From Buxus sempervirens (taxonomy: Eukaryota; Streptophyta; Magnoliopsida; Buxales; Buxaceae), in NCBI GenBank assembly GCA_947561395.2, contig OX387190.1, positions 8,240,858 to 8,304,857 on the forward strand: a stretch of 64,000 nucleotides of DNA, given 5' to 3'. Below, piece after piece: positions 15,078 to 55,463 of the stretch. Position 1 is the first letter of the stretch; every line of letters starts with the position of its first letter. The notes beneath the pieces were generated by a model, which worked only from the letters and a program-made list of their open reading frames with translations, searched no databases and had not been told where the DNA came from. The position numbers and the translations under genes were made by a program.

Positions 15078-18000
15078 TGTAACGCCCCGGTTCCGGGTCC
15101 AATTCCCAAAACCCAAGGTGTTATGGTAAACAACAAACACAACTAAAATATGGAATAATTTAAAACTTTTTCTAACTTTATAATCAGAGTAAAAGCGGAA
15201 ACTGGAATTCAAATTCTCTTTATTAATCAACAATTATAATATAAAAGGATTTCAATTATATGAGCAATCCTACATCTATATAGACTACCCAGCTACAACT
15301 AGCCCACAACTTGACGTCCTCACCAAGAGTACTTGAAAAATGGGAGAAACCGGAGTGAGAATAAATCTCAACAAGTAGCAAGTTGCATGCATGAAATCAG
15401 TCCATGTTTATATAAAATAAGTCATGAGGTGTACGATTAAACCAACAACCACATCAACGAGGATAATTCCAAAGTTTAAATTCAATCCCATTAATACTAT
15501 CAAAACATATCTCAATAACAATACCGATAAAACATCAAATGGTCAATGTCATGACTATTGTTTGAATTGATTAATTGACATGCCAAGTAGATACTCCACA
15601 CCTCCATGTACACAGTTCCAGCCTACTCAGGGTTTCGTCATCCAATGCAGGCCTACTCCCCGGGTTTCTGCATTGACAACCAGGCCTACTCAGGGTTTCT
15701 GGCTGCTCTACACCGGTCGTGGCAACACACAAGGCCATGCAATTACATCAATAAATAATACCATCACATTACTAAGCTTAGACATGGATCCAGTACAAGC
15801 TAAACCAAAACAGTAAATCATCGTATGATCTCAATTCCAACATCAAAATAAAACCATACATGCCACATCATGTATAACTCAACATAGTTCACCACATGTC
15901 CCTCTGGACCAGACGGTACCTCAAGTACTTTCAGTATTTCTCCAAATTCGTAACACATGCCAATTTGAAATAAAACTCAGTTACGCACACCAAGAAAATA
16001 TTTACCATACATTCAAAATTTTCCAACAAGTAAAACCAAGATTTTATAATTTCTCAACCAAGTACAGTGTATAAAAACAAAGAGGAAACTGACTAGGAAC
16101 TCCTAGTGTTAGGTACCCAGTTCATCACCTACAAATAACCTAAAATTTTGCCTTGGGAGCCTCTAAGAATTTCCACTAAATTTTCTCCCAGTAATTGAAT
16201 AGGTAATATTGGTTCTAAAGTCCCAAACAAGTGATTGGTTAAGTGTTTGAACCCTCAATTCATCAAAACCCAGTTTGGTTTAGTCAAAAATGCTCTTTGG
16301 CAAGGTATTTGTACCATGCGCTAGGCACGAGGTCGGCGGATAGGTCGATGGTCGAAATTGGAGTATGCGCCTACTTAATATCAAGTGAGCGCGAGCTAGG
16401 CGCGAAGTGGGCGTGAGCTTAGCGCGAGGTTCGCGCGAAATGCGCGCATAGTTTTTAAGTGCGCGCGAGCTGAGCGTGAAGTGGGCGCCAGCTCGGCGGA
16501 TGGGAAGAATATACCTTGTGCCCACTACCCGAAGTAGGAGCAAGTGAGCGGATAGTCACTGTAAATTTCGACTCTCTGTTATTTCGAGATCTACATCTCT
16601 GGCCGAACGTTTTCGGTCTGTAACACTTCCTTTAGTTTCCTAATATTGCCAGAACACATTCAAACCAGTTTTGAAATTAATCTAAATACATTTTTATTCA
16701 TGATCATTCCATTCTAAATAACTCATGTTCGGACGAAGTTATTCCAGAAATCAATCAGAAAACACTCATGCATCAGAATAAACTCACAAATAAACACAAA
16801 ACCTCAGTTTTAAAACGATGCTACTCACATCTTGGTAATTAAAATTTAACTAAGGTTTCTTTCTATTTCAACCCACCCATGAACAACACTTTTCTTGATT
16901 CTAAAAAAAAAGATTCAAATCACCAAATCAAAACTTTATAAACATCTAACTTTTCCAATGAAATCCAACTTAAAAATCAATACGATCAATCATAAAAAAA
17001 CACAAGAAAATATACAGTTCCTCCAGTTTCAAGTGTTTGCTACTTGCCTTTTTGATGAACCCAGATTTTTCATAACTTCATCTGTGTCCGTTTTTGGAGC
17101 TCGACCGGACCCCTCTAAACTTCTCACATTTAGATCTTCACCGTTCAGTTTGACGTCCTCCATGAGTGGAACAAAACCTTAAAATTGCAGCCCATTCCAA
17201 CGGTTGGATCTTTCTATCTCACCGTTCGAAGTTGGCTAGTCGGCCATCTCTGCAACTCCTTTTTCTTCAAAAATATGATTTTCCATCAACTTCTGGGTTA
17301 CTTCGCACCACCTTAGACTCATACAAATCCAATCTTCACCGTTCAGATTAAAGTTTCTCGTGTATAGCACATAACCTCCAAATTTCATGACGATCCAACG
17401 ACTAGATCTCCGGGGATCGTCACTCAAAGTCTGCTGGTCGGATCTCTGCAGCACCTCCATTTTTCCTTTCTTCCATCTCTTTTCTCTCCTCTCTTCTTTT
17501 CTTTATTTTTCTCCCAAGCTCAAGCACAAATTTTTCCTTCTTTCCTCCTTTTTTTTGGACTTGCTAAAAACCCTAAACCTTTCCTAGACCTCCCCTTTTA
17601 TAAACTCTCTTAATTAGAAGTCCTACTAAGTTTAGAAGACCTTCTAAATAGACTTCTCACTTTTAATTGGAAACCTCCCCATCTTAACCCTCCTTCTAAT
17701 TCCTCTTTTAAGTATTATATATAAGAGAAGGATTTATTTTAATTTATTTTTGTGCTAATTAAATTTCTTATTTTAAAATATTACTAAAACACCCTAAAGC
17801 TACCTCTTATCCTCAAACTTAAGGCTTCTCATCAACCATAATCACCAATATACCATTTTTCCTACTTTTAAGCAATAATTTGCTATTTAAATGCAAACCT
17901 AACCCAAATTAAGTCTAGTTAAATATTTCAAGTCTAATAATTATTTACTTACTCAATATCTTAATTTGGCTAATTGGAAAAAGACTAAAATACCCTTTCC

Positions 18001-18159
18001 TTGGAATTCCATACTTAACCTTTGAATCTTTTTCCAAAAATTCTCCTATTTATTCTTCACATCAATCTTAACCTTAAAATGTACTTTGATTAATACCTAT
18101 CTTCTCAATATTTAGGCTTATTTAATTTACTTTATTTTAGGAGAATCCGGGGTTTTACA
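15078..18159 (-). mobile_element. Solo Tekay-type LTR (3082 bp)
   Basis: On the minus strand it starts TGTAAAACCCCGGATTCTCC and ends GAACCGGGGCGTTACA. The target duplication GTGAG is at 15073-15077 and 18160-18164. It is the same family as the LTR at 35783-39228: the 15340-15450 segment is the reverse complement of 38850-38960 with few changes. A minus-strand TATA lies near 17597-17603. No internal part is present. Assignment to Tekay/Del rests on the LTR ends and the sister LTR's adjacent chromovirus-like 3' end. Confidence 0.88.
16310..16560 (-). repeat. GCGC-rich word block in the solo Tekay-type LTR
   Basis: An island of high GC in an AT-rich LTR, made of reshuffled words such as AGTGAGCGCGAGCT, GGCGCGAAGTGGGCG and GTGCGCGCGAGCTGAGCG. 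It lies about 1.1 kb downstream of the TATA box. Very similar words occur in the unrelated Tat-type LTR2 at 54460-54660. Confidence 0.75.
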
Positions 18160-18980: not shown

Positions 18981-19564
18981 TGTAAACACCTCATTTTTGC
19001 GCTCCAAGAAGTGCCGAAAATGCTAACCCTAGCTGAAAAGTCAAACCCTATGGGGGCAAAATTTGACTTTTTCAGCAAGTGATAATTGGCAACCTTGCTT
19101 TATCTCAATGGATAGAGAATCCCGACACGGTTCCAACGCAACTAAGTTTGCAGGAATCGGAACCTGGATGAAGGATTTTACAGGCCGGTCAAACTTGAGG
19201 GGAGCAGAAATTGACTTTCTGCTAAACCCCAAATCAGCTACTTAACCCTACCCCAATGAATAGAGGACTCCGATATGGTTCTAACGCAACTAATTTTGCT
19301 CAAATCGGAGTCCAGACGGGGAAGATATGATCAGTTGAAGTTTCCAGGAAGCAACGCCAGAAACTGCACACGTGGCAAAGAAACTGCACACGTGGCTAGA
19401 AACGCAGATAAATATCTCGAGGGGCAATCCATAAATATCCAAAACCTGCAAAATATCTCAGGGATTAAACCAAAATTGCCCAAGGGGCAATCTGCAGTTA
19501 TCTCAAGTGTCAAATCGATCAAATCCAGGGGGCAATCTGTAAATATAAAAAATATTGGTAGAAT

Positions 19565-19764
19565 AACCGGAAATAAATTCCGGTTATACACAAATTGTGT
19601 ACAACCAAAATTCAATTCCGGTTCATAAAGCAAAATCAAAAATCGCCCGACAGATTCTCTGATTCCGTACCTGACAAGCCTTAATTACTAATCAAGTGCA
19701 AAAGTAACCGAAATTCAATTTCGGTTACCAAAAAAAATGGTATAACCGAAATTCAATTTCGGTT
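19565..19764 (+). repeat. 21-bp dyads upstream of TATA in 3' LTR of A
   Basis: Four 21-bp words at 19565-19585, 19603-19623, 19706-19726 and 19744-19764. The last two are perfect palindromes with arm AACCGAAATT around a single C. Starts within each pair are 38 bp apart, about one helical turn more than the 28-bp step seen in other LTRs. Confidence 0.88.
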
Positions 19765-19799
19765 ATACTGAAAAAGCGGTGTAATACCTTTTTTCTGTC

Positions 19800-19807
19800 T
19801 ATAAATA
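19800..19807 (+). promoter_or_regulatory. TATA box of the 3' LTR of A
   Basis: TATAAATA followed by GGG, 35 bp after the last dyad and about 820 bp into the LTR. Confidence 0.65.
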
Positions 19808-21170
19808 GGGACCCCGACCATTTGGCTTCGGGTTGGCTGCTTTTCGAATTTTTCCCCCACCCCACCCTGCTCGCACCTCCCTCATCTACCCTCTCCAACC
19901 TCTCTTAGCACACAAAACCCCACCCTAATCATTCTAAACCCTTTCCCACCTTCTCCTTCTTCATTCCTACTACTTGAAAGAAGCCTTGGAGGACTTGGTG
20001 CTTGGAGGAGAGGAGCTAAACCTGCTGTGGAAGCTTCAAGTGGAGTCCAACACCACCCTAGGAGGTTTTCAACTTCAAGGTATGCCTTCCCATTGAACTT
20101 TGTTTAACATATGTAAATATAAGGTTGTTTGGAGCATGTTGATGTCTTTCTATACTACAACCTAGCATTCTTGGGTGTTGCCTTGGTTCATCCCTCCTCT
20201 TTCTCCTTCTCCTAAGTTTTCTCTTCACAAGGTGGATCTCCCATGGTAAGGAGATGAGTTTTGGTTGGTAAAATAGAGTAGGGAGAGCCGTTTGTTTGGT
20301 TCAAGGAGGCCTTGTAACCACCGTTTGGCTACTATTTTTTTGCTTTTATCATGGAAGGCTATTCTTCAAAGAGTGGAGCATGCTCCATTCGTGTGTGCCA
20401 TCCAAATGTAACCCTGGCATATGCCCCCTCCTCTTCCCTTCTTTAACTGCTATTTCGTTAGGATTTGTGGGATGATCTTGACATGATTAAATACATGAAG
20501 AGTATGGCTAGTTGCTACCACGTGAATGCATAAAATCCCTTCGTTAATCACTAGGATTTAAAGCATGCCTGCCATGATTTTAGACTTGCATAATGACATT
20601 CTTTTTCAACTGTTTTCATGCATTTTCATTGAGGCTTTTATCATTTTTTTAGCCACTATTTGTGACCATACGAAGCCGATCCCTTTGCATGCGTTTCCAT
20701 GTGCTAAAGACATGCTTTAGGAGACTGTTTTCAATGAGTTATGAGTGCCTAAAGTGTTTTCCGAATCTTAGTAGTGCTTAATCATGTATCATCTTGTTCA
20801 TTGCTGTTTTGACTTGAAGCATGCCTAGGTCAGTTATGTTACTTGATTTTTTATCCATGTGTAAGCATACTGATTTGTTTTGGAGCAAAAGAAACCAAAC
20901 CAGGGATACCTAGATCCCTGGTTGGTCCATGTGTTGATTTGAAGAAGGGAAGGGAGCCCCCACCCATTCCCTTGACGTTTGGTTTTGAAAATCCCGAAAA
21001 AGGAGGAGCCAAATAGCTCAATTCGAACCACTGTGGGCCCACACAGGGGCCCACAGGGACCCTATACATGCCCACAAACACTTTGGATTGATGTTCTGTT
21101 GAAAAAGTGAAAAAACCAACTTCGGCAGGTTTCCCGGAAACTCAGGTCGGTCAAGGGTGTTCTTTGGTGT

Positions 21171-21230
21171 AACCGAAGTTGAATTTCGGTTAAACCAGAA
21201 TTACAATATAACAGAAATCCAATTTCAGTT
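21171..21230 (+). repeat. Second dyad pair in the 3' LTR of A
   Basis: Two 21-bp words at 21171-21191 and 21210-21230, starts 39 bp apart. The first is AACCGAAGTT, a central base and AATTTCGGTT; the second is a decayed copy. They are the same private word as the U3 copies, about 1.4 kb further down the LTR. Confidence 0.82.
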
Positions 21231-22288
21231 ATACTGTCTTTCAGTTTCCAAAAAACCAGATTTTTTATGTTTGTTGATTTGTTGTGTTGTGTAAGCCGAA
21301 CCAGATGAACCAACAGGGTTTCCGGGTCAACCGGAAACCCAAAATGGCACATGGGCTTCCAAGCCCAATTGGATCCTTTGGTGGGCCCTCCAACAGGGCC
21401 CACCTAGCCCAAGATCATTCTTTGAAGATAAAACAAGATAATTAAAATAAACTAAATGGGCCAAACCCTACGAGGCCCACCAAAGCCCAATGAATATGAA
21501 GCATGCAGGCTTAGCATAGGAATGGTTTGGCCGTGACCGAGAGTGCGGGCCTATCGGGCCCACTAAGCCCAACAACCCAACTGGGTAGGGTCCAATACCC
21601 TGACCCATTGAACCATGGACCCCTGGTCCAAGTCTAGACTAATGTGGAAACTTAAAGAAGATAAATTCAAATAAATCACTTGGCTGCCACTGTGGGCCTG
21701 CCCAATGGACCCACACACCAATCCCGACCCACTTTACATGAAAAATCACTTAATTTCCAACTTTAACACTAAAGCAAGAAAACAATCAAACTAACCAAAG
21801 CTTAAAGGGCCTCCCAGGCTTAGATGGAGGCCCACCAGGGGCATGTGGGCCGAACCCGGCCCACCAAGGAAACCATGGGCCTTCCAACGGGCCCACCCAA
21901 TCAGACTTAGACCACTTAATTAAACAAGATAAAATCTATTAAAGGGATCCACACCACTACTCAGGCGGTCTCGCCAGACTCAACCGAGTTGCATGCTGGA
22001 TTAGGAATTGGGTGAGAAATCAGTGAGTTGATTCAAACCAGGAGAAACCTATGGGACCCGTCAACCGGCGGGGCAGACCGGGGTGTCTACGGACGTCCCC
22101 AAACCGTAAACGAGACCCTGCCTAGAATCTCAAGCCGCAAACCTGCCCAATAGACAAACTTAGGCACCCCGGTGTCCGCCTGCACCCCATCAGGCGGTAC
22201 CGACTCCAACTTCCCATTTTACCCTCCCGAAGGCACGCATGAGAATCCGTGCGCCCCGTGGTGCGGCGTTCATTCTGACACACGCACA

Positions 22289-32662: not shown

Positions 32663-34042
32663 GTAGTTGTGAGACATGGGAAAAAATCAATCTAATGATT
32701 TCCTCTATCATCACACGGGATTAAATTAAACAAAGAGTCGCCACCATTCAATTTAGGTGTGAATGGACACCAAAATATTAAATAAGCACAAAAGGCAAAT
32801 TTTAGGGCAAAATATCCCTCCTAAAAAAAACAACCAGAGATGGGAAAGGGGATTAGGTTATGAACAGGGGAAGGTGTTAGGCACCCCTATTCATCCACAC
32901 AAGGTGGTTGCCAGGCATTGTTCATGTTAAATTAAAAGAAAAAGCTTGCTATAAAAATCAGGAAAAATCACAAAAAAGGCAAAAATATATGGTTTTTTTC
33001 ATATGAATAGTCTGATTGATCCAGAACTTTCAAATATGATCATACCATTCCTAGGGTTTCATGATCAAAACAAAATTGAGATAAAATCAATTTAAAGTGA
33101 AAAATCCAAAATCTGGCTTCAAGTCAAATTCTAGCAGTCTAGAAAAATATGATTTTTATAAAATATTTCAAAATTGAACTTGAATAGTCCAAGACATAGA
33201 TAAATCCCAAATTTCACGTTAAATCAGAAAATAAAAACCAAAAATACCCACGTTGATGAAAAACACCAAAAGGGGAGAATTTAGACCGTAGGGTCTTCTC
33301 TCAATAATGAAAAACAATTTAAAATCCATATCATGAAACCCTAGAATTTACTTTCAGGCTTCTGGATTCAGATCTATCATATTGATCATGATAAATCCAG
33401 TATCTTAGCCTAAAATCACAAAAATCATGAAAACAGTGCTGTAGGTGCAAAAGTGGCAAAAATCCAAATTTTGTCAAAAAGTGAGGATCTCATGCTATAA
33501 ACATCATAGATTCATGTAATTCATTCAGATATATCATAAAAAGCATTAAAACATGATCAGGATATTCAAAACAGCCACATCTCACAAATTAGAGCACATG
33601 GGGGTCTACCCTACGGATCCACCTGTTCTCTTTTTCCCTAGTTCTCTCTTCACGTTTTACGGTTAGAGAGACTCTTGAGGTACTTGGAGATAGGTTTGAT
33701 TACACAAACACAATCACAGGCTTTATTCTAAAAAAAAACAGATATGGGGTTCTATTCTAGGGATCCACCTGTTCCCCTTTCCCCTAGTTCTCTCTTCACG
33801 TTTTACGGCTAGAGAGACCCTTGAGGTACTTAGAGACAAGTTTAGGAATACAAAAACAGATATGGCCTTATTCTACAGCAATAGAGATGATCCTATTACT
33901 TCTAGAATTGAAGACAGAAAATAAAAAAGGATAGGGGACTTACCTGGATTGAGCAGGCAGGCAGCAGGGATTCTTCTCTTGGAGTTCCTTGGACTTCTTT
34001 GACTTCAAAATTTCGTGGCCTTTTGCTTGAGGAAAAGCCCTC

Positions 34043-34050
34043 TATTTATA
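34043..34050 (-). promoter_or_regulatory. TATA box of the solo LTR
   Basis: TATAAATA on the minus strand, in a GCCTATAAATAGAGGGC context, about 420 bp into the LTR. Confidence 0.6.
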
Positions 34051-34259
34051 GGCAAACCCCAGGGGTATGGTTGGTCTAAGGTTTGGCAAGATAGAGTTTC
34101 AGTTTGAGTTAAACACAAGATCATGCCAATCCTTTATCCACAAGGATAAATGAGATAATTCGAACAAATAAATAAGAGAATTCGCTTATCCAAGAGAGAT
34201 ATTTGGGTGCAGATAAGGCTCAAAAATTAAAAAGGTAAAATTCGCAGAAAGACCCCCGT

Positions 34260-34364
34260 GACCGTATATATATTACGGTCGCGCCCTGCCCGTATTATTA
34301 ATACGGGCACGTCGTGACCGTATATCAACTGCAGGTATGACCAGTCCGTAAACAAAATATGGTC
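34260..34364 (-). repeat. Four 21-bp dyads at exact 28-bp steps
   Basis: Words start at 34260, 34288, 34316 and 34344. The second is a perfect palindrome with arm GCCCGTATTA around one base; the first has arms GACCGTA and TACGGTC; the third and fourth are partly decayed. The core is CCG-N11-CGG in the first two. They lie about 210 bp upstream of the TATA box. Confidence 0.88.
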
Positions 34365-34471
34365 ATGACCAGTTTGGCCAGATTTTACACTTTTTTGACT
34401 TGTTTCAAATCCCAATTAATATTTTCAATTATTTTCTCATTTTTAGTGCAATTTGGGGTGTCTACAGTAGT

Positions 34472-35737: not shown

Positions 35738-37419
35738 ATGATTTAAATTTCGAGGACGAAATTTTTTGTTAAGTGGGTAGATTGTAAAACCCTGGATTTT
35801 CCTAAAAATAAAATAAGTTAAATAAGCCTAAATATATAGAGAAGTTAAGATTTAATTTAAGTATCGGAGGAATAATATTATGATCGAAAGAGATATTAGT
35901 AACCAAATAAATAAACAATAATTTTGAGCAATTAGGAATTTAAATAGTGGCTTCATTTAAATAGGAAAGAGTAAGGTTGATTTAGATAAATTGGGAGAGT
36001 GACTTAAATATAAAGGATTGGAGAAGATATGTATTAATCTAAGTGCATTATATGGTTAAGATTGATGTGAGGAATAAAGAGGATAATTTTTGGGAAAAGA
36101 TCCAAAGGTTAAATATGGAATTTCAAGGAAAGGGTATTTTAGTCATTTTCCAATTAGCCAAATTAATATATTGAGTAAGTAAATAATTATTAGACTTGAA
36201 ATATTTAACTAGACTTAATTTGGGGTTAAGTTTGAATTTAAATAGCAAATTATGGCTTAAAAGTAGGAAAAATGGTATATTGGTGATTATGGTTGATAAA
36301 AAGCCTTAAACTTGAGAATAAGAGGAGTTTTGGGGTGTTTTAGTAATATTTTAAAATAAGAAATTAAATTAGCACGAAAATAAATTAAATTAAATCCTTC
36401 TTTTGTATGAGATTCTTTAAAAATGAATTAGAAGGAGGGGTAAGATAAAAAGCTTTCAAATTAAGAATGGAAACCTATTTAGAAGGACTCCTAAACCTAT
36501 TAGGACTTCTAATAAGCTTATCAAAAGGGAAAGTCTAGGGAAGGTTTAGGGTTTATAGAAAATCAAAAATAAGGAGAAAGAGAGGGGGATTTGTGCTAGG
36601 GCTGGAGAAAAATAAGGGGAAGAAGAGAATGAGAAAAAAAAGAGGGAAGAAAAGAAAAAGGAGGTGCTGCAGAGGTCTAACCAGTAGACTTTGAATGGCG
36701 ATCTCCGGAGCTCCAACCATTGGAATGAGTTGAAATTTGGAGGTTATGATCTACGCATGAGATTCTTCAATCTGAACGGTGGAGATTGGATTTGGAGAAG
36801 TCTAAGCTGGTGGTACGAACTAACCCAGAAACGTGGTGGAACATCATATTTAGGAAGAAATAGGGGTTGTAGAGATGGTCGACTAGCCAACTTCGAACGA
36901 CGAGATAGGAAGATTCAACTGTTGGAATGGGCTAAAATTTTAGGTTTTTGATCTACTCATGGAGGACTTCAAACTAAACGGTGCAGATCTGAAGTGAAGA
37001 AGTCTAGAAGGGTGTTATTGAGGTCATAAAATGGGCACAGAAGGAGTTTTCGACAAATCTGGGTTCATCAAAAAGGCAAGTAGCAAACCCTTGAAATTGA
37101 AGGAACTGCATGTTTTCTTGTGATTTTGATGTTTGATCGTATTGGTTTTTAAGTTGGATTTCATTAGAAAAGTTGGATGAGTATAAAGTTTTGATTTGGT
37201 TATTTAAATCTCTCTTTAAGAATCAAGAAAAGTAATGAATATAGGGGATTAAATTAGTGGGGAAAAACTTAGATAAATTATAATCACTAAGATTTGATTA
37301 GTTTTGTCTTAGAAGAATTTTAGAATGAAATTTAGATGTTTAGAAACAATTTAAAATCATAGAAATTTGAGAAGTTTCGGAAATTCTGAAAAACCTAGAA
37401 AAACTGAGTTTTGGGCAGA

Positions 37420-37615
37420 GTGCCCGAAAGGCAGCTCAAGCGCCCTATCTGTATACCTTAAAACAGAACCTGAAACTCAGTTGCTAGAAAAACCACTCGA
37501 GCGCAACCACGGGCAACCTGCCTGTGTATCTAAAACAGAACCTGAAATTATAGCTGCTAAAACAGTTGCTCGAGCACCTTTTCGAGTGACCCATGCAGAA
37601 AATCCAGATTTTGGG
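37420..37615 (+). repeat. Word block in the Tekay-type LTR
   Basis: Words such as GTGCCCGAAAGGCAGCTCAA, CACTCGAGCGCAACC and GTTGCTCGAGCACC, separated by a repeated AAAACAGAACCTGAAA. Its place in the LTR matches the blocks at 16310-16560 and 30030-30220. Confidence 0.65.
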
Positions 37616-38226
37616 ATTTGTGCCCAGATTTAAATTTTTAATGATTTTTTTGTAAATCCTAAAGTTGTAACACCTGTAACTAGGAAAATTTGAGATGTAG
37701 GAAGTGGTGGAATTAAATTTGAATTAAAGAATAGTAATTTGGGATGATGATTGTAAAGATGAAACTTTTGGAGATATTTTAAGTAGAAAGAGGTCACAAC
37801 CTATTTAGTTCTGAATTTGTGTAACCTAACCTATTCTTAAACTTCAATATAGACTGAAGATACCTTCTGGAAGTACTAAATAACATAGTTAATAAGTTTT
37901 GACACCTTAGGTTCTTTAAAGGGTAACTTTGGGTATTCTTTGGCAAATATCTAGAATAAAAACCAATTAGGGCATGAATCTTTGTAAATCATAAAATACT
38001 GATTTGGAAAATTATCTAACACTTTCACATGGGTAAATTAAGCGTGTTCCTATTAGTAAATTAATGTTTAGAAAACTAATGAGTGATTTGGGCATGATTA
38101 ACTATAATATTGTGTTTTCAAGGCTTGGATTGTGTTTTCTATTTATTTTCAGATGTGGTCCATTTCTTACATTTGATGTCATATATCTGGACATTTGCAT
38201 ATGGTTTCATTAATGAATTGGAAGAA

Positions 38227-38333
38227 GTATTGAAGACCTTCGTGTACCTCGGGGATGCCCTATGTATCTTGGGATGAAGTATTGAAGACATCCGTGTACC
38301 TCGGGGATGCCCCATGTATCTTGGGAAGATATG
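38227..38333 (+). repeat. About 52-bp direct duplication in the Tekay-type LTR
   Basis: A unit with GTATTGAAGAC, GTGTACCTCGGGGATGCCC and ATGTATCTTGGGA occurs twice in tandem. A second local repeat, GAATAGCCA followed by AGGGCGGCTGGT, occurs near 38625 and 38692. Confidence 0.7.
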
Positions 38334-39228
38334 ATTTTGGTTAATTTTCTTCTCTTATGTATCTTGAGATGAGTTGTTTATTAAGGATTTTAGAACTTAT
38401 AGTATTATTAAGTTATTATGAGTTTTTGGTTGTGAGCTGTGTCTAGCAGGCTTTGCTCTTACATGGATCCATTAGCGTAGCTAATAAATGAAATTATTTT
38501 CTGGAGTTTCCTATTATGTGTCATAGGCATTCCATCATCTCAAGGATGGTATTGCTCCTGGATTGGTCAGTCGCTACGTTACCCACTCCTGGATTGGTTG
38601 GGCCGTGCATGATAACCCATTTGGAATAGCCAGACTGTAGGGCGGCTGGTTATTGGTTATTGGTTGTTGGTGGGTTCTTCCATCGATGTTGAATAGCCAA
38701 ACTGCAGGGCGGCTGGTCCATTTGTAATTCGGAAGGTAGCATACTGCCACATGTCTGTAGGACTCTGTTTACGATTCCATTAGTCCTGTGATGTCACAGA
38801 TGTGGTATGCTGTTTGCCGTGATTTATCTATATTATCATTTTTCTTGTTGATGTTGTTGTTGGTTTAATCGTACACCTCATGACTTATTTTATATAAACA
38901 TGGACTGATTTCATGCATGCACCTTGTTACTTGTTGAGATTTATTCTCACTCCGGTTTCTCTCATTTTTCAGGTATTCTTGGAGAGGACGACAGCATTGG
39001 ACTAGTATGTAAAGGGCTTGTCAGTTTAGTTGTAGATTAGCTTCCTGAGATTAAAAACATTGTAACGGTTTAAAGTTTATTTGTTAATGGATATTATTTC
39101 AAGTTTCTGCATATAACTCTGATGATGAAATTAATTGAAGGTTTAAATTGATCAGATTTTTAGTTGCTTTTGTTAGTTACCATAACACCTGGGGTTTTGG
39201 GAAATGGACTTGGAACCGGGGTGTTACA

Positions 39229-39920
39229 CCAACTCTTGCTACTGCTACCTCCACCAATCCTCTTCTAGACCATTCTAAGGCATTTACCAGTAGGTCTGCC
39301 AATCAGATAAGCAATGGGCAAGGCAGTGAAAAGCAGATCAACCTGTCTACATTGATTGGCCGGCCGGGACAGATTGTCAGGGTGTACATTTGGGAAGAAG
39401 CAGATTACCGGACAGCGAATCATTGGGGCGGATGACGAGGATGCCCCCTAGACCTCCCTTTGGTGCACTTCTCCCCAATCAAAGAACTCGAGTTTTTCTA
39501 CCCCACACCTATCCCAGATCCATCTCCTGTAAATATCTTCGACATGATAGATAGCCCACCACACGACCTCACAACTCTCTCATTTGAACCACCATCTTAA
39601 ACTTATCACAACTCCGCCTTGAACCACCATCCTACCACACTGTACCTCCACCCTATCCAATCCAACCCCTCTACCACCAATCCACCATCACCACCACTGA
39701 AGTAGAAATTGATCGGATCACCCGATCCTGCCAATACGTAAATACTGACCCTCCACCCACACTAAAGGAAGAGACAAAAGAAGAAAAGAAAATAAAAGAG
39801 AAAGGGAAGGAAGTGGCCACGGAATTGCCACCAACCTACAAAAGAAAAGGGAAAGCTACAGAGGAGGATATTATTGATCTCCACAATAGTATACAGGTGC
39901 CAGAATATGATCTCTTCCAG
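39229..39920 (+). pseudogene. gag-protease linker of element B
   Basis: Matches element A from about 4356 to 5030: NPLLDHSKAFTSRSANQIS, then the acidic and proline-rich part, then a basic KEEKKIKEKGKEVATELP stretch. In B this sequence runs without interruption into the protease, which shows that the LTR at 5036 in A is an insertion. No known domain is present. Confidence 0.7.
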
Positions 39921-39949
39921 CAACTATAGAAAGTACCTGCTCAAATCTC

Positions 39950-40590
39950 CATCATGCACCTATTAATCGATTTAGAGAAACATAGAACGGCAATAATGAA
40001 GGTCTTAGATGATGCTTATGTGCCGGATAGCATTAGTCCTGACCAACTAGAGGCAGTTGTGTCTGTGATCATGGCACCAAAAGCTATCTTCTTCTCTGCC
40101 ACAGATTTGCCACCAGAAGGGTGTGAGCACACTGAACCATTGTACATTACGGTGAAGTGCTTTGACCATGTTGTAAAGCGAGTAATGATTGATAATGGGT
40201 CAGCCTTGAACATCTGCCCTAAGAGGACTTTCCACAGTCTACAATTGAGCTCTGAATTAATCAAGCCAAGTTCCCATAATGTCCATGGATTTGATAATGC
40301 TAGAAGGGAATCCTTAGGAAAGGTCACCTTGGACATGGTAATTGCAGAAAGGACGTTCACCATGTCCTTTGAACTTATGGACATTAATGCCTCTTTCAAC
40401 TTACTGATTGGGAGGCCATGGTTGCACCAAGCTGGGGCAGTATCGTCCACTCTACACCGGATGGTCAGGTACATATCTGGAAACGAGTTAATCACTGTCC
40501 ATGCTGAAGACCATAGGGAGTTTGAAAAGTTTGGAGTACCATATGTTGATTACAAGCTACCCACGTCACTGAACTTCCAGACAATAGAGA
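39950..40590 (+). pseudogene. Aspartic protease region of element B
   Basis: Retropepsin-like domain with VMIDNGSALNICPKRTF around 40183-40225 and FELMDINASFNLLIGRPWLH near 40370-40430. It is collinear with the protease of A (8085-8700). It is one open stretch and could be mistaken for a host gene. Confidence 0.87.
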
Positions 40591-40675
40591 TGGTACAAGT
40601 GAACCACATCCCTTTGGCTGACCGGGTACGACGATCCCCAAAGAGAAAGAGAGGCAGTATGTTTAGTGCCACTGA

Positions 40676-40796
40676 GTGTGCCGATTGGGGGCTTAGAGCG
40701 GGAGACGGATTGGGAAAATACAAGCAGGGAATCAAAAAGGCTGTCCAAACTTATGAGAAGGCCACCGGATTTGGACTAGGATATAACCCACAGCCC
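40676..40796 (+). pseudogene. G-patch domain of element B
   Basis: WGLRAGDGLGKYKQ and FGLGYNPQP, the same G-patch as in A at 8833-8957. Its position directly after the protease is conserved in both copies. Confidence 0.75.
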
Positions 40797-40879
40797 TAGA
40801 ATTATGCTAGACTCTATGGGATGCAAGCTGAAAGGAAAAGAGCTCGGATTGAAGGAACGGACCCATACTAGCCCATCTG

Positions 40880-41275
40880 TATGCATGGGGAATTATACCA
40901 CCGCTTCACCAACATGGAACAGGAAGCTGCCATGTCATTGGAGAATATTGTCCCCCAGGGGTGGGGTGATGAATTCCAAAATTCCCCGGTACAGGAAGGG
41001 GATTATCTACAAGGTTTATCTCAGATGCTCCTGGAAGAGCGGCTGCCCATGGAGATGATTGGTGGTGCAGTGGAGATTGATCCCCTAGCCTCTGATTAGT
41101 TACCAGATAATCTGCCATCACTACTGGCATTGGACTCCACCAATGATGTGACAATTGCTGTTGCGCCATCAGATGCACCGTTCATCCTGGAAGGGATACC
41201 GGTTGATCCCCCAGTCATGATTGATGCGCCGCCGTTAGCTCCCATCCAAGAATCTGAAGAAGAAGAAGACCCAGC
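40880..41275 (+). pseudogene. Protease-RT linker of element B, left part
   Basis: Corresponds to 9050-9440 of A (for example GDYLQGLSQMLLEERLPMEM). It ends at the target duplication CCAGC (41271-41275) of LTR1 and resumes at 57873 in the same reading context (MYIYMMES-like). Confidence 0.75.
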
Positions 41276-43616
41276 TGTGTGCGGTGAAAATCGCATGGCG
41301 GGGCACACGTGAGATGCGTGCCTCCTAAAGGGTAAAACGGGAAAGTTGGAATCGCCACTGCCTGATGGGGGTGCAGGTAGACACCTAGGTGCCTAAGTTT
41401 TTCTAGTAGGCTGGTCTGCGGCTTGAGATTTTAAGCAAGGTCTCGGTTATAGTCCGTTGAAGTTTGTAGACACCCTGGTTCGCCCCGTCGGGTGACGGGT
41501 CCCATGGGTTTCCTGGTTATGAGTCAATTCAACCTAAACTCAACCAATTCCTAATCTAGCATGCACATTTTATTGGGTCTGGTGGGGACCACCTGAATGG
41601 CGTGGGTCCACTTTATTTTGATTTTATCTTAGATTTATTAAAGTGATTTGAGTTTGATTGGGTGGGCCCGTTGGAAGGAAGGCTCACGAATCCCCTGGTG
41701 GGCTAAGTCTAGCTCACATGTCCCTTGGTGGGCCTCAGTCTAAGCCTGAGAGGCCCTTTGGGCTTTGGTTAAGTGTATTGATTTTATTTACAGTTCAAGT
41801 GTAAATTTAGGTTAAGTTTTATTCAAAGTGAGCCTGGATGATTTGTGGGCCCCTTAGATGGACCTCACAATGGTGGCCATGTGGTTTGATTTATCTTAAT
41901 TCAATTTGATCCCAGAATGGGCTAGGAATTGGGCTTGGGGCCCGCAGCCTAGGCTTGAGGCCTGGAGGCCCAAGACTTAGGAAATTGGGGTTTTGAACCC
42001 TTCCTTATTTGGTTAATGGGCTTGACGGGCCCGATAGGTCTTGGCCTGTGGTCTCAGCCAAACCAAACTTAAACTAATCCAGCATGCTTCAAAATTGGAC
42101 TTTGGGTGGGCCTCAAACGGTGTGGCCCAGTCAATTGACTTAATCATCTTGTTTACCTCCAAGTGGTTTGTTTGGGCTTGGTGGGCCCTGTTGGAAGGCC
42201 CACTATGTATCAAATTGGACCGGGAGGTCCAAGTCCCACTTTGGGTTTTACGGGTGGTTCACTTGGTTTAATTAAGAGAGCAAGAAAATTACACAAAACC
42301 AAGAAAAATAAGAAAATGAAATTTCTGCAGTATAGCCAACCTAAGTTGTCAGCTACACACAAAGGCACATGTAGTTTAACCCACTAAGTATAAGATACAT
42401 GCTCTAAAACCATAATGCATTTACATGTACCGAATGCATGTAAGGTGAGATGTGTGCTCCTTTGATGTGTACAAAAGTGGAGGGGTTGAATTCATGCCAG
42501 TGAATGTGAGCATGCTTATGGCATTTCATAAAGTATGCATACATGTGTGCGCGCGTCGGAAACGCGACACGGGGGAATTCGGAGTCGCCACCGCCTGATG
42601 GGGTGCAGGCGGACACCTGGGTGCCTAATCTTGTCTATTAGGGCTTTTGGTCTGCGGCTTGAGATTCTAAGTCTGTTCTCGGTTGCCGTCTGGAGAAGTC
42701 CGTAGACACCCTAGTCCGCCCCGTCAGATGATGGGTCCCGTGGGTTCCCTGGTTTGAGTCAGCTTACATTGGTCTCACCCGATTCCTAATCCGATATGCA
42801 GTTTGGTTAAGTCTGGCGGGACCACCTGAGTGGTGTGGGTCCTATTAATTGCTTTTATCTTGATTACTTAAGTGATCTGCGTCTGGTTGGGCGGGCCTCG
42901 TTGGAAGGCCCACAGTATCCTTGGTGGGCTTAGTCAAGCTCGTGTGCCCTTGTGGGCCTCGGCCTATCCTAGGAGGCCCTTTGGGCTTTGGTTGGTGCAT
43001 TGATTTTACTTTAGGTTCAGATTTGAAGATTAAGTGTTTTTCATGCACAAGTGGGCCGGACTGGTTTGTGGGCCCCTTAGGTAGGCCCATATGGTGGCCA
43101 AGTAATTTTTATTGGATTTATCTTTTTAATTTGCCAAAGTGAGTTGGACACTGGGCTTGGGGCCCGCAGTCCAAATCTGGGCTTGTAAGCCCAAGTTACC
43201 AGAAGTTAGGGTTTGCACCCTTCCTTGGTTCGGTTGGTGGGCTTTGGCGGGCCCGGTAGGCCCTTGCCCTTGGTCTCAGCCAAACCACGCATTTCATGCA
43301 TCAATTCACTAATCTGGTTCGGGTGGACCGCCTTAGGTTTGGCCCGCCCGGTTTGATCAATTAATTTTACTTATCTTGATTAAGTTGCACGCATACCTTT
43401 CATTGTGTTTATTGGGCCGGGTGGGCCCCGTTGGAAGGCCCACTGGAAATCAAGTTGGACCGGGGGTCCAAGTCCCATATTGGGTTTCCGGGTCACACGG
43501 AAACCCTTTTTGGCTCATTTGGCTTGATTTAGGAATGCCACCCATGTCTAGCAAAAGTTACAGATCACAGAAACATATCAAAATTGACATTTATCAAGGA
43601 GAGACTGGCTCATTAT

Positions 43617-45273
43617 TGATAAGTGCATATTTTTATACATTTATTAGTCTTGAATTTGGTCTTTTGGAATTGTTTAGGCCTTGTTATGTTAATTTATACT
43701 TGTTTTTGTAGTTAAGGAATTTTTGGAAGGATTAGAGTAAATTGTGGTTATAATTGGAAAAACTCAGGCTTTTTAGTAGTTTGACCTTCTGGACTTCTTG
43801 CAGGATTTTGATCACATTAGAGTTCCAGAATGTGAAAGTGATCTTCAGAGCTTTTGTAGAAGACGTCCTGAGCTTTCCAGAATGGTATGGTTTGGAAAAA
43901 TCTGAGTTCATTTAAGCCTCCAAATGTTGTTTCAAAGTCAGATCAAGGAACCTGATTCTAATTCTGGTCGGACTGGAATTTCTGTTCGCGAATTGAAGCT
44001 TTAAAAGTGCATAACTTGAGCGTCAGATGTCCAAATTGAGTGATTCAAAAGCCTAAATTCATCTACACATCCAGAGCTACAATTTCTATGAAGGGATCTA
44101 TGTCCATAAATGAAGATTTCCTATCCAAAAAGTGTCCGCAAGTTCCAGAAGACTGAGTTGGTGTTTGAATTGAGTTTTTAATTAAAGACTTATTTGGAAG
44201 TCTATTTTAATTGTTTGGTTGGGTCCCACAAGAAGAAGATTTACATTAGAAGAGATCGTGAGTTGCTGGAGAGGCATAGAGGATTTGATTTGAAGATTTA
44301 TTCCATTGTGATAGGAGAAAAAGAGAGTTAGTTTCCAAGAAATAAGGAGGAGAATTTTGAAATAAACCCAGCAGCAGCTTTTGAAAGGAAGAGGACGAAA
44401 AAGGTCAGAAAGGATTTTTTCTGGACGTGGAGGAGAAGGGAAAAAGAGAGAAGAAGAAGCAGAACTCGTTTTCTTCTCTTGAAGATGCAAGGCTAAATTC
44501 CTCATTCGGTTCAAGAGAGCATACTTCGAAGGATCAGCCGTGAGACCTTTGTTTTGATTGTTCATAAATACTGATTATGTTTGCTATCTTTTGTTCTTCT
44601 TTGTCGATTGAAAGACATTCTTGTTCTTAGTTGCATAGGAGGTCCTCTCTGTAATTAAGATCAGTGAATGAAAGCCAGATTAAACTTTCTAATACGTATA
44701 TATTATGAAGTTTTATCATGAGTGGCAATTAGGGTTATTGATTTCTAATATTGATATCATATTAATCCTAAGAAGAATAAAGTGCAGATTAAACCAATCG
44801 AGCTTATGAATTGATTATTTGTTTCGGTCACTCTCTAATTCGTTAATGCTATTATTGAATTACACGTAGAGAGCTTGTTCTAGGTGGTTCAATAATAAGG
44901 AATCAAATATCGTGCTTATTATGTTTGATGATCAAGGAGAACAGGGTTAATCTATACTTTAGATTAACTTAGACTGAATGGCAATTATTGATTGGTGTAC
45001 TTTTAAGTGTTGTCAATGATCGGCTGGCAATTCGAAGGTAATGTTTGCTCTTGACCGGATTCTTTCTCACTGATTACTTCTATAGATTTTATTTATTTTT
45101 TGTCTTTTTGGCTTGAGTTAACTAATCTGAAAATTTCCTTCTCCTTTAAATCTATTTGACTATAATCTTGTGACGAGTTAATTGACACTAGTCTCTGTGG
45201 GATCGACCTCATTCATCACTAGCTATTTAGTTGTGAAAAGAGTAATTTATTTTGTTGCATTCGGCACGCATCA
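43617..45273 (+). mobile_element. 5' LTR of element C
   Basis: Starts TGATAAGTGCATATTTTTAT and ends GGCACGCATCA. It is collinear with the 3' LTR without length change. Dinucleotide ends TG and CA are present. Confidence 0.95.
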
Positions 45274-45278
45274 AAATT

Positions 45279-45375: not shown

Positions 45376-47150
45376 ATGCAACGCTTGGGCAAATTTGAAA
45401 TCTTTCCACTTGATCCAGAGATTGAACGGACCATTAGAAGGTTAAAAAGAGAGAAAACCGAAGAAGCGGGTCAACAGAGTTTAAGCATTACATCAAATAT
45501 CTCCTCTTCATTAAGTGATTCCTCAAGCGAATCAGAATCAGAACCCATGGCAGCAAATGCAAACAGAACCCTTAAGGAGTTGGCGGCTCCAAATTTGAAC
45601 CAACAACCTCTTTGCATTGAATACCCTAATTTGGATGTAGATTTTGAGTTGAAATCTGGACTAATCCATCTTTTGCCTTCTTTTCGTGGTTTTGCAGGTG
45701 AAGATCCTCATAAACACTTGAAGGAGTTTCATGTGGTGTGTGCAACTATGAAGCCCGCAGGCATAACCGAGGAGCAAATTAAATTAAGAGCTTTTCCATT
45801 CTCTTTGGCGGAAGTAGCTAAGGATTGGCTTTATTATTTACCTTCTGGATCCATAAATACATGGATGGAGATGAAAAGGTTGTTTTTGGAGAAGTACTTC
45901 CCCGCCTCTAAAGCTGCAAACATCCGAAAAGAGATATGTGGAATCAGACAGTACAATGGAGAGACATTATATGAGTATTGGGAGCGCTTCAAGAAATTGT
46001 GTGCCAGTTGTCCTCATCATCAGATTTGTGAGCAGCTTCTAATCCAATACTTTTATGAGGGACTCTTCCCACAAGACAGGAGCATGATAGATGCAGCAAG
46101 CGGTGGTGCCTTAGTAGATAAAACACCAGAAGCAGCTAGAAATTTGATCTCCAACATGGCTGCCAATACCCAGCAGTTTGGCACAAGACATGATCCTCCA
46201 CCAAGGAAAGTTAATGAAGTCAATAACTCCACTCTTGAGCAACAAATAGCTGGATTAACCTCTTTGGTGAGACAAATGGCTGCAGGTGGTATTCAACAAG
46301 TGAAAGCATGTGGTATTTGTTCAGTTATGGGACATGCCACGGATATGTGTCCCACTTTACAAGAAGAGTCTACAGAGCAAGCTAATGCAGTTGGTGGTTT
46401 CCCAGGTCAGCCACAAAGAAAGTATGATCCCTATTCCAATACATACAATTCTGGATGGAGGGATCATCCAAATTTAAGCTATGGGAATCAAGGAGTGCTA
46501 CAACAGCAAAGGCCCTACCAGCCATCATTCCAAAGGCAACAACAAGCTCAACCTTCAAATTCTAATTCTTCGTTGGAAGACATGGTCAAGACATTAGTTC
46601 AAAATACTGCTCAACTTCAGAATAACAACATGCAGTTCCAACAACAAACAAGAACTAGTATTCAGAACTTGGAAAATCAAATGAGCCAACTTGCTACCAC
46701 TGTTAATAGAATGGAAGCTCAAAGTTCTGGTAAACTTCCATCTCAAACGATTGTGAACCCAAGAGAGAATGCAAGTGCAATCACTTTGAGGAGTGGAAAA
46801 GAAGTGGAAACACAACTTAAGGCCCCTCTCTGTGTGGATGATGAAGAAGTTGAAAAGGAGCTTGAAGTACCTCTAAAGAATTCTAAATTGGCAACCAAGG
46901 TAAATTCTCAAACTCCTTTGAATAAAAATATTTCTAATGCTTTGCCTCCTTTTCCTAGTAGGTTTGCTAAATCTAAGAAAGAGGAGCAAGAGAAGGAGAT
47001 ATTGGACCTGTTCAAAAGAGTAGAAGTGAACATACCTCTAATTGATGCCATCAAACAAGTCCCAAGGTATGCCAAATTTCTCAAGGAATTGTGCACTTCC
47101 AAAAGGAAGTTGAGAGGAGATGAGAAAGTAAGTGTGGGGGAGAATGTGTC
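45376..47150 (+). CDS. gag region of element C
   Basis: Starts MQRLGKFEIFPLDPEIERTI, 80 bp after the primer-binding site. A Retrotrans_gag capsid domain occupies about residues 85-270 (for example LKEFHVVCATMKPAGITEEQ and WYFPASK-like EKYFPASKAANIRKEI). A CCHC knuckle CGICSVMGHATDMC is near residue 313. A Gln-rich and coiled-coil stretch follows (residues about 385-455), then NPRENASAITLRSGKEVE, a signature of Athila-like gag. It forms the particle that packages element RNA. The start is supported by its position after the leader. Confidence 0.9.
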
Positions 47151-52311: not shown

Positions 52312-52327
52312 TAAGTGTGGGGGAATT
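52312..52327 (+). other. Polypurine tract of element C
   Basis: TAAGTGTGGGGGAATT directly before the 3' LTR start TGATAAGTGC. It would prime plus-strand synthesis. Confidence 0.85.
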
Positions 52328-53984
52328 TGATAAGTGCATATTTTTATACATTTATTAGTCTTGAATTTGGTCTTTTGGAATTGTTTAGGCCTTGTTATGT
52401 TAATTTATACTTGTTTTTGTAGTTAAGGAATTTTTGGAAGGATTAGAGTAAATTGTGGTTATAATTGGAAAAACTCAGGCTTTTTAGTAGTTTGACCTTC
52501 TGGACTTCTTGCAGGATTTTGATCACATTAGAGTTCCAGAATGTGAAAGTGATCTTCAGAGCTTTTGTAGAAGACGTCCTGAGCTTTCCAGAATGGTATG
52601 GTTTGGAAAAATCTGAGTTCATTTAAGCCTCCAAATGTTGTTTCAAAGTCAGATCAAGGAACCTGATTCTAATTCTGGTCGGACTGGAATTTCTGTTCGC
52701 GAATTGAAGCTTTAAAAGTGCATAACTTGAGCGTCAGATGTCCAAATTGAGTGATTCAAAAGCCTAAATTCATCTACACATCCAGAGCTACAATTTCTAT
52801 GAAGGGATCGATGTCCATAAATGAAGATTTCCTATCCAAAAAGTGTCCGCAAGTTCCAGAAGACTGAGTTGGTGTTTGAATTGAGTTTTTAATTAAAGAC
52901 TTATTTGGAAGTCTATTTTAATTGTTTGGTTGGGTCCCACAAGAAGAAGATTTACATTAGAAGAGATCGTGAGTTGCTGGAGAGGCATAGAGGATTTGAT
53001 TTGAAGATTTATTCCATTGTGATAGGAGAAAAAGAGAGTTAGTTTCCAAGAAATAAGGAGGAGAATTTTGAAATAAACCCAGCAGCAGCTTTTGAAAGGA
53101 AGAGGACGAAAAAGGTCAGAAAGGATTTTTTCTGGACGTGGAGGAGAAGGGAAAAAGAGAGAAGAAGAAGCAGAACTCGTTTTCTTCTCTTGAAGATGCA
53201 AGGCTAAATTCCTCATTTGGTTCAAGAGAGCATACTTCGAAGGATCAGCCGTGAGACCTTTGTTTTGATTGTTCATAAATACTGATTATGTTTGCTATCT
53301 TTTGTTCTTCTTTGTCGATTGAAAGACATTCTTGTTCTTAGTTGCATAGGAGGTCCTCTCTGTAATTAAGATCAGTGAATGAAAGCCAGATTAAACTTTC
53401 TAATACGTATATATTATGAAGTTTTATCATGAGTGGCAATTAGGGTTATTGATTTCTAATATTGATATCATATTAATCCTAAGAAGAATAAAGTGCAGAT
53501 TAAACCAATCGAGCTTATGAATTGATTATTTGTTTCGGTCACTCTCTAATTCGTTAATGCTATTATTGAATTACACGTAGAGAGCTTGTTCTAGGTGGTT
53601 CAATAATAAGGAATCAAATATCGTGCTTATTATGTTTGATGATCAAGGAGAACAGGGTTAATCTATACTTTAGATTAACTTAGACTGAATGGCAATTATT
53701 GATTGGTGTACTTTTAAGTGTTGTCAATGATCGGCTGGCAATTCGAAGGTAATGTTTGCTCTTGACCGGATTCTTTCTCACTGATTACTTCTATAGATTT
53801 TATTTATTTTTTGTCTTTTTGGCTTGAGTTAACTAATCTGAAAATTTCCTTCTCCTTTAAATCTATTTGACTATAATCTTGTGACGAGTTAATTGACACT
53901 AGTCTCTGTGGGATCGACCTCATTCATCACTAGCTATTTAGTTGTGAAAAGAGTAATTTATTTTGTTGCATTCGGCACGCATCA
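52328..53984 (+). mobile_element. 3' LTR of element C
   Basis: Same length as the 5' LTR (1657 bp) with two visible mismatches. It is followed directly by the target duplication ATTAT. Confidence 0.95.
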
Positions 53985-54014
53985 ATTATACTGGGTCCAA
54001 GGGGAGGGATTTAT

Positions 54015-54450
54015 CAAGGTAAAGGGCATTTTCGGGATTTTTCAGGGTAAAGGGCATTTTCGGGATTTTTCAAAGTAAAGGGTATTTTCGGGATTTTTTA
54101 AGGTAAAGGGCATTTTCGGGATTTTTCAGGGTAAAGGGCATTTTCGGGATTTTTCAAGGTAAAGGGCATTTTTGGGATTTTTCAAGGTAAAGGGTATTTT
54201 CGGGATTTTTTAAGGCAAAGGGCATTTTCGGGATTTTTTTAAGGCAAAGGGCATTTTTGGGATTTTTCAAGGTAAAGGGCATTTTCGGGATTTTTTTTAA
54301 GGTAAAGGGCATTTTTGGGATTTTTCAAGGTAAAGGGCATTTTCGGGATTTTTTTAAGGTAAAGGGCATTTTCGGGATTTTTTTAAGGCAAAGGGCATTT
54401 TCAGGATTTTTTAAGGCAAAGGGCATTTTCGGGATTTTTCAAGGTAAAGG
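54015..54450 (-). repeat. 28-30 bp minisatellite in LTR2, 15 copies
   Basis: Unit on the plus strand: AAGGTAAAGGGCATTTTCGG then GATTTTTC, with 28-31 bp spacing caused by variable T runs. Fifteen copies of GGGCATTTT or GGGTATTTT are counted. It lies in the part of LTR2 downstream of its TATA box, next to the insertion point of element C. Confidence 0.93.
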
Positions 54451-54454
54451 TGAA

Positions 54455-54660
54455 GTGGGCGCAAAATCAAGTGAGCGCGAGGTGAACGCGAGGTGAGCGC
54501 ATCCAAATTTAAGTGAGCGCGAGGTGAGTGCGAGCTGAGCGCATCCAAATTTAAGTGAGTGCGAGGTGAGCGCATCCAAATTTGAGAAGTGGGCGGATGC
54601 TAAAAAAAATGATCCGCTCACCTTTTTTGGGTGCGCTGACCTCGCAGAGCTCGGCGCATA
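54455..54660 (-). repeat. GCGC-rich word block in LTR2
   Basis: Words GTGAGCGCGAGGTGA, GCGCATCCAAATTTAAGTGA and GCGCGAGGTGAGTGCGAGCT recur several times. The words also match the block at 16310-16560 in a Tekay-type LTR. It is downstream of the LTR2 TATA box on the minus strand. Confidence 0.8.
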
Positions 54661-55417: not shown

Positions 55418-55435
55418 GGAGAGGAAAAAAGGGGG

Positions 55436-55463
55436 TATGCGCTCAGCTTGCGCTGAGCGCATA
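55436..55463 (-). repeat. 28-bp palindrome upstream of the LTR2 TATA box
   Basis: Twelve-base arms TATGCGCTCAGC and GCTGAGCGCATA around TTGC. The GCGCTCA word belongs to the same vocabulary as the block at 54455-54660. Its place matches the 21-bp dyads of the other Tat LTRs, but the geometry differs. Confidence 0.85.

Follow-up and report, generated by a model that had tools for sequence, protein, structure and literature searches.

LTR retrotransposons in the window

The window, a 64-kb stretch of plant DNA, is densely packed with LTR retrotransposons, and four of its LTRs carry arrays of short palindromic words. LTR1 (1-1192, minus strand) is cut at its left end by the window start and has a TATA-like site at 388 (minus strand). 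LTR2 (5036-8073, plus strand; TATA-like site at 5602) is a solo LTR bounded by a 5-bp target duplication (ACCTC, 5031-5035 and 8074-8078). It sits inside an older element, whose flanks at 4709-4999 and 8076-9204 match 39577-39868 and 39912-41040, respectively. LTR3 (18981-22288, plus strand; TATA-like site at 19799), whose end was taken from an earlier, sequence-only reading of this DNA, is immediately preceded by a purine-rich stretch. LTR4 (32668-34466, minus strand; TATA-like site at 34051, minus strand) is again a solo LTR, flanked by the 5-bp target duplication GTAGT (32663-32667 and 34467-34471).

LTR3 is probably the 3′ LTR of an element with a pol region at 10127-14295, in which Pfam recognized reverse transcriptase (RT), RNase H, a second RNase H-like domain and then integrase; in the ORF at 11549-12265, PF17917 is followed by PF13456, and PF17921 and PF00665 come after. 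This domain order is that of Ty3/gypsy elements, and a second RNase H placed ahead of integrase, as found here, is the hallmark of the Tat/Ogre lineage. On this hallmark, the region is read as belonging to a Tat-type Ty3/gypsy element. Among the best 120 relatives listed for the integrase ORF (12943-13740), identity was about 56-65%, and those that carry an organism name come from plants, for example Trifolium, Hevea, Theobroma and Solanum. Searches for relatives outside the window gave 0 matches in viral contigs, or 2 and 63 stretches without any relative; genome contigs gave 44 stretches without a relative and 2 further matches, to bacterial records, which were taken as chance.

The sequence-only reading had described the four LTRs as different in sequence, which proved incorrect. 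A 5′ block is common to LTR1, LTR2, LTR3, LTR5 and LTR6, and among LTR1-LTR3 it is 63-71% identical over about 190-380 bp in blastn comparisons. LTR4 matched LTR1 in the array region only and LTR5 by one weak inverted match outside the array, with no blastn match to LTR2, LTR3, LTR6 or LTR10. The common block holds a unit of about 147 bp, which is present in two copies in some LTRs (829-1065, 55744-55979, 57509-57745) and about 5.5 times in tandem at 63060-63862 in the LTR at 62930, as copy-number growth inside U3.

A further solo LTR at 15078-18159 (TGTAACGCC...TTTTACA; target duplication GTGAG) also lies in the older element; compared with an inverted relative at 36017-39229, both flanks match and the middle (15467-16821) does not. 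An LTR pair at 43616-45274 and 52327-53985 is 99.88% identical and encloses two ORFs (984 and 835 aa) in which gag and pol domains were recognized. This element is young and Athila-like; its LTRs are without dyad arrays and would serve as a negative control. Rfam returned only one match over the window and none in the LTR arrays. That match, to the plant snoRNA snoR71 (45919-46025, minus strand; 50.3 bits, gathering threshold 40), falls within the gag-bearing ORF of the Athila-like element and is either a chance match or a captured snoRNA. A tRNA search of the window gave 0 matches.

Arrays of 21-bp words in four LTRs

The array of LTR4 (34260-34364, minus strand) consists of units at 34260, 34288, 34316 and 34344, at a step of 28 bp. 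LTR1 has two arrays on the minus strand, one with units at 402, 430 and 458 (402-478) and one with units at 568 and 596 (568-616), the latter identical to 402-450 at 43 of 49 bases. On the plus strand, LTR2 carries an upstream array (5414-5588) with units at 5414, 5501, 5529 and 5568 (steps of 87, 28 and 39 bp) and a downstream array (7454-7530) with units at 7454, 7482 and 7510, 28 bp apart. LTR3, also on the plus strand, has units at 19565, 19603, 19706 and 19744 upstream (19565-19764; steps of 38, 103 and 38 bp) and at 21171 and 21210 downstream (21171-21230; step of 39 bp). The starts that the sequence-only reading had listed for LTR1, LTR2 and LTR4, the 28-bp steps between them and the 38-39-bp steps in LTR3 were thereby confirmed.

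In total, LTR1, which is cut by the window, contributes 5 units, LTR2 4 + 3, LTR3 4 + 2 and LTR4 4, as counts for the LTRs and not for full elements. The 16 successive intervals among these 22 units are 28 bp nine times and 38-39 bp four times, and three are long (87, 103 and 110 bp). Units 34316, 34344 and 7510, with just 4, 5 and 3 of 10 arm positions paired, were retained for register, so that three of the nine 28-bp intervals are partly a matter of construction. No such array was seen in LTR5, LTR6 and LTR9 or upstream in LTR8.

LTR5 has a single 30-bp dyad (55435-55464, minus strand; 13-base arms, 4-base centre), 16 bp from a TATA-like site at 55418; it is not of the CCG-N11-CGG type, and its word differs from those of LTR1-LTR4. 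The downstream part of LTR5 (54456-54665, minus strand) contains direct GCG words at steps of 11 and 20 bp. TGAGCGCAT is common to this part and the 55435 dyad, and all 5 of its occurrences in the window are in LTR5. Direct GC-rich words, among them TGAGCGCGA, TAGGCGCGA, TGGGCGTGA and TTAGCGCGA, are found at 16386-16500 in LTR8 and at 54456-54598 in LTR5, following each other at 11-bp steps, with 19-20 bp at breaks, in apparently different lineages; AGTGAGCGCGAG is present in both (16384, 54470, 54512). These words would constitute a second grammar, again with helical-turn phasing and changing words.

Words and spacings exceed chance expectation

The core that the sequence-only reading had assigned to the words, CCG-N11-CGG, was counted 18 times across the window, compared to a mean of 1.7 and a maximum of 8 in 100 dinucleotide shuffles. 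Among the 41 spacings of CCG-Nk-CGG with k from 0 to 40, k = 11 ranked highest, with k = 13 (13 occurrences) and k = 26 (12) next. The arrays of the four LTRs hold 13 of the 18, and the others are at 18950, 21134, 22065, 55723 and 63885. The reverse arrangement, CGG-N11-CCG, was found 10 times versus 2.0 in shuffles. In addition, when the 47 total dyad lengths from 14 to 60 were compared in the four upstream regions, 21 bp was the commonest under either threshold, with 8 perfect dyads versus 0.10 and 19 versus 1.43 when one mismatch was allowed (outer arms of 7; 40 shuffles). Thus, the proposed word length was borne out; the proposed ten-base arms were not, being complete in only 3 of the 22 units, and the common arm spans 7 bp around a 7-bp centre.

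In the comparison with shuffled LTRs that the sequence-only reading had called for, we counted dyads whose outer arms of 7 had 6 or more positions paired, 3 or more of these as G/C pairs, against 400 shuffles per LTR region. Upstream of TATA, LTR1 had 9 dyads versus 0.34, a count that takes in overlapping in-between dyads and one beyond the array (1022), and LTR4 had 4 versus 0.13; 0 of 400 shuffles reached the count in either case. LTR3 had 4 versus 0.40 (1 of 400 shuffles), one of them (19203) beyond the array, and the excess was weak in LTR2, with only 2 versus 0.31 (15 of 400). Pairs of dyads exactly 28 bp apart, of which LTR1 has 4 and LTR4 has 2, had a shuffle mean of 0.000. The downstream arrays were not significant by dyad count alone, as 119 of 400 shuffles reached the count in LTR2 and 35 of 400 in LTR3; their case therefore rests on word identity (see below). 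A control pol stretch (58000-62700) also showed an excess of 21-bp near-dyads, 11 versus 3.2 (0 of 100 shuffles), and no dyad pairs at 28, 38 or 39 bp. We conclude that the dyad arrays are real and beyond chance.

Half-sites alternate at a 14-bp step

The 44 half-sites of the 22 units gave the consensus RMCCGNA, with A at position 7 in 43 and the core CCG in 32. Facing CCG and CGG stand 14 bp apart, centre to centre, and in the 28-bp arrays the next CCG again comes 14 bp on, so that half-sites alternate at one constant step. In LTR4, orientation flips each 14 bp (34263, 34277, 34291, 34305, 34319), and in the 402-478 array of LTR1 half-sites follow each 14 bp from 419 to 475; runs of five at this step are found in both LTRs. 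All 12 facing pairs 14 bp apart that are formed by the 219 strict half-sites of the window lie within arrays, with 0 among the 186 half-sites outside them, while 2000 random placements gave a mean of 0.16 and a maximum of 3. The next commonest facing distance, 16 bp, had 5 pairs, and opposed pairs (CGG..CCG) at 14 bp numbered 4 inside and 2 outside arrays. When units within each of the five 28-bp arrays are compared, 154 of 196 arm positions (79%) are identical, compared to 83 of 196 (42%) in centre plus spacer. As units and half-site model were drawn from the same sequence, these 14-bp and arm-versus-centre figures are descriptive and lean to the model; the CCG-Nk-CGG spacing scan and the dyad-length scan are the less biased tests.

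The words differ between LTRs, most clearly at position 6, which is T in 10 of 10 half-sites of LTR1 and 7 of 8 of LTR4, C in 6 of 8 upstream and 5 of 6 downstream half-sites of LTR2, and A or G in all 8 upstream and A in all 4 downstream half-sites of LTR3. The idea that geometry is kept while sequence changes holds in a refined form, in which CCG, the 14-bp step and A at position 7 persist and positions 1, 2 and 6 vary between LTRs.

Eleven of the 12 altered cores are explained by C>T/G>A changes alone, the signature of methylated-cytosine decay. Moreover, the upstream arrays of LTR1-LTR4, in stretches of less than about 230 bp, have CpG observed/expected ratios of 1.64, 0.86, 1.69 and 1.65, compared to 0.89, 0.12, 0.32 and 0.28 in the remainder of these LTRs and 0.50 in the window. 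Both observations would suit arrays that are platforms for host silencing, in which CCG-rich words are methylation targets (CG, CHG) and the repeats attract RNA-directed DNA methylation with no specific activator involved. However, the CpG excess is partly a consequence of the words themselves, the survival of CpGs in an otherwise CpG-poor LTR suggests that the sites were once under selection, and methylation targeting gives no reason for N11, for A at position 7 or for the 14-bp step. We consider this explanation very unlikely.

Alternatively, the arrays might be a neutral by-product: tandem and inverted duplications of short stretches, tidied when reverse transcription copied them from hairpin templates, would have made them, and the common 28 bp would reflect a single ancestral array inherited by LTR1-LTR3 (and LTR4). 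Tandem Repeats Finder reported 28-bp periods at 416-479 (91% matches) and 34256-34323 (75%), and unit 402 is closer to the reverse complement of unit 430 (19 of 21) than to unit 430 itself (16 of 21). The near-identity of the two LTR1 arrays and the 5′ block common to LTR1-LTR3 likewise agree with duplication and descent. On the other hand, arms are kept at constant spacing while centre and spacer are not, the spacing changes by about one helical turn even between two alignable arrays of one LTR (see below), and LTR4 lacks any other match to LTR1. A neutral origin is thus rather improbable in our estimate.

Helical geometry and position relative to TATA

At 10.5 bp per turn, 28 bp correspond to 2.67 turns, 38.5 bp to 3.67 turns and three 28-bp steps to 8 turns. 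Adjacent words at 28 bp consequently lie on different faces of the helix and do not allow a simple same-face contact, in contrast to what the sequence-only reading had proposed. Its observation that the two spacings differ by one turn did stand up: 28 bp and 38-39 bp impose an equal relative rotation and differ by about one helical turn. In LTR2, the downstream array can be aligned to the upstream one once 11 bp are gapped between the last two words (39 versus 28 bp), and corresponding steps in LTR3 are 38 bp upstream and 39 bp downstream. A non-palindromic 28-bp tandem repeat, in 15.7 copies at 54006-54450, adjoins the 3′ LTR of the Athila-like element; that it has its period in common with the dyad arrays is perhaps a coincidence.

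Except in LTR4, an array is found a short way upstream of TATA, the word nearest the TATA-like site being 13 bp away in LTR1, 13 bp in LTR2, 34 bp in LTR3 and 208 bp in LTR4. The 34 bp could be read as 13 bp plus two turns (21 bp), but four values prove little.

Second arrays downstream of TATA

The claim that all arrays lie upstream of TATA had to be given up, as the arrays at 7454-7530 in LTR2 and 21171-21230 in LTR3 lie 1.85 and 1.37 kb downstream, respectively. They stand 78 bp (LTR2) and 116 bp (LTR3) past a block that matches between both LTRs (65% identity); in LTR4, no downstream array was seen. Outside its upstream array, the word of LTR2 is matched best by the LTR's own downstream array (7454, 13 of 14), and the same holds for LTR3 (21171, 14 of 14), with the other LTR's words scoring lower (12 of 14). 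Word and array pair have therefore changed together. In LTR2, 8 of 42 half-site bases are changed downstream versus 2 of 42 in the three main upstream units; the downstream copies thus look more decayed and may be less constrained.

A proposed promoter array read by a dimeric protein

The best explanation, and in our judgement a fairly probable one, is that the arrays are promoter cis-arrays recognized by a DNA-binding protein in dimeric or oligomeric form. We infer this protein, its dimerisation, its cooperation and its effect on transcription from what was observed in the DNA itself, namely sequence, spacing, position, enrichment, decay pattern, word-specific drift, kept CpGs and the conservation of arms over centres. 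The operator array for a dimeric factor proposed by the sequence-only reading accordingly remains the best reading by virtue of the half-site, the N11, the odd-length dyads and the spacing of 28 bp or 28 bp plus about one turn, and no longer by the same-face and upstream-only arguments.

We suggest that the arrays would be read as double-stranded DNA by a sequence-specific dimer, probably assembling cooperatively, with a half-site of about RMCCGNA. One 21-bp word would consist of two such half-sites facing each other, with their centres 14 bp apart. Words at 28 bp would form an unbroken lattice, with half-sites alternating each 14 bp, while words at 38-39 bp would be placed one helical turn further, preserving the rotation between adjacent dimers. 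The complex beside TATA would set transcription of the LTR, as an activator or as a silencing target. Between families, words would drift at positions 1, 2 and 6 while core and spacing stay, and the second array 1.4-1.9 kb downstream in the long LTRs, with the same word, may be bound too.

Several observations count against reading by a protein: the LTR4 array is 208 bp from TATA, upstream LTR2 is weak alone, pol 58000-62700 has its own dyad excess, LTR5, LTR6, LTR9 and the upstream part of LTR8 are without an array, opposed 14-bp pairs occur outside arrays, and folding is far above shuffles. The last point bears on a structural RNA role, which the sequence-only reading had named as the alternative. 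RNA (or cruciform) hairpins, with the U3 palindromes near the transcript 3′ end and the downstream ones near its 5′ part, could serve processing, dimerisation or packaging, or, in line with a proposal made for Sirevirus palindromes, be diced by the host to small RNAs. All nine folded stretches were more stable than shuffles (z of -2.8 to -9.1), arms at times exceed 21 bp (19740-19768, 14-base arms), and some arm changes are compensated (GACC/GGTC in 34260 versus GCCC/GGGC in 34288). Furthermore, Sirevirus palindrome clusters have been reported as small-RNA hotspots (PMC10760457, PMC5311732). However, any inverted repeat folds, so the z-scores do not separate an RNA from a DNA reading. A hairpin could form without the CCG core, without A at position 7 and without a 14-bp step carried on from one word to the next, and an array upstream of TATA is outside the transcript starting there except via the 3′ LTR. 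A structural RNA role fits the folding scores and is, on balance, unlikely.

For the protein reading, one candidate reader is an LBD/LOB-domain factor, whose half-site may resemble RMCCGNA and whose dimer might fit the N11. The 28-bp lattice also holds a Gal4-type CGG-N11-CCG, but this option was set aside because LTR3 retains the inner CCG-N11-CGG only. VOZ, NAC, ARF, SPL, MYB, DREB/ERF and NLP factors were set aside as their sites misfit in core or spacing. The literature searched on LBD factors yielded no binding consensus; as described there, these plant-specific zinc-finger dimers discriminate palindromic DNA as 'molecular calipers' and have the G/C-rich core GCGGCG (PMC10118128).

A bolder and distinctly doubtful extension is that Tat-type LTR retrotransposons might run a sequence-specific operator code. 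Its reader would be a dimeric protein, encoded by or adapted to the element, that binds the TATA-side lattice and the downstream array, bridging or coating the LTR and switching it on against silencing; each family's word and protein would change together while the helical geometry remains fixed. If true, each family would have a private control channel, like VANC/VANDAL but based on dyads. Among the 18 larger ORFs of the window that were scanned, none showed a DNA-binding domain, and LTR2 and LTR4 are solo LTRs.

Ty3/gypsy elements fill much of many plant genomes and, to our knowledge, what switches them on is largely unknown. The present sequence evidence comes from one 64-kb window with four array LTRs, three of which (LTR1-LTR3) have the 5′ block in common. 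With half-site, step and helical-turn rule all specified, the lattice provides a concrete query for any plant genome, and could be compared with published binding data to name the factor.

Comparison with known systems

Heat-shock elements consist of nGAAn units at a 5-bp step in alternating orientation, read by an oligomer. The present half-sites likewise alternate at a fixed step, but the step is 14 bp and the unit RMCCGNA. The VANDAL motifs bound by VANC anti-silencing proteins (Hosaka et al. 2017, PMC5735166) are similar in being short motifs arrayed in tandem in noncoding transposon parts and changing together between related families. As described there, VANC21 recognizes a directional 9-mer, YAGTATTAY, in one orientation in DNA transposons and is encoded by the element, whereas the words here are dyads in LTRs.

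The closest known system is the RM (repeated motif) boxes of Sireviruses, described as palindromic, element-specific and CpG-rich, with a CGG-CCG core, upstream of TATA, and called Sirevirus-specific within a Ty1/copia comparison (Bousios et al. 2010, PMC2829016). As in those boxes, a palindromic motif is repeated upstream of TATA in LTR1-LTR4, the CGG/CCG core is constant while flanking bases change between elements, and the clusters, which form CpG islands in Sireviruses, may here too be CpG-rich stretches in CpG-poor LTRs. In contrast, Sireviruses are Ty1/copia elements, while the element of LTR3 is of Ty3/gypsy type, as LTR1, LTR2, LTR5 and LTR6 would be by their common 5′ block. Sirevirus words of 10-20 bp have CGG and CCG close together, whereas the core here is CCG-N11-CGG; no compact CGG-CCG word recurs in the 22 units, and CGG-N11-CCG is present in the 28-bp lattices. 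Sirevirus elements have at least 8 copies each, compared to 2-5 words per upstream array here, and their extra clusters lie upstream of env, whereas here the second array is part of the LTR and follows TATA. The 14-bp alternating lattice is a feature of the present arrays. In searches of open-licence full texts, we found no report of CCG-N11-CGG or a 28-bp dyad lattice in Ty3/gypsy LTRs.

The arrays thus appear to be known in kind, with Sirevirus RM boxes as the closest relatives, and to differ in superfamily, core geometry and copy number; their spacing is unusually strict and ruler-like. If RM boxes and the lattice serve the same end, two superfamilies would have reached CCG/CGG dyad arrays beside TATA, and such arrays would then be a general feature of plant retrotransposons meeting host control.
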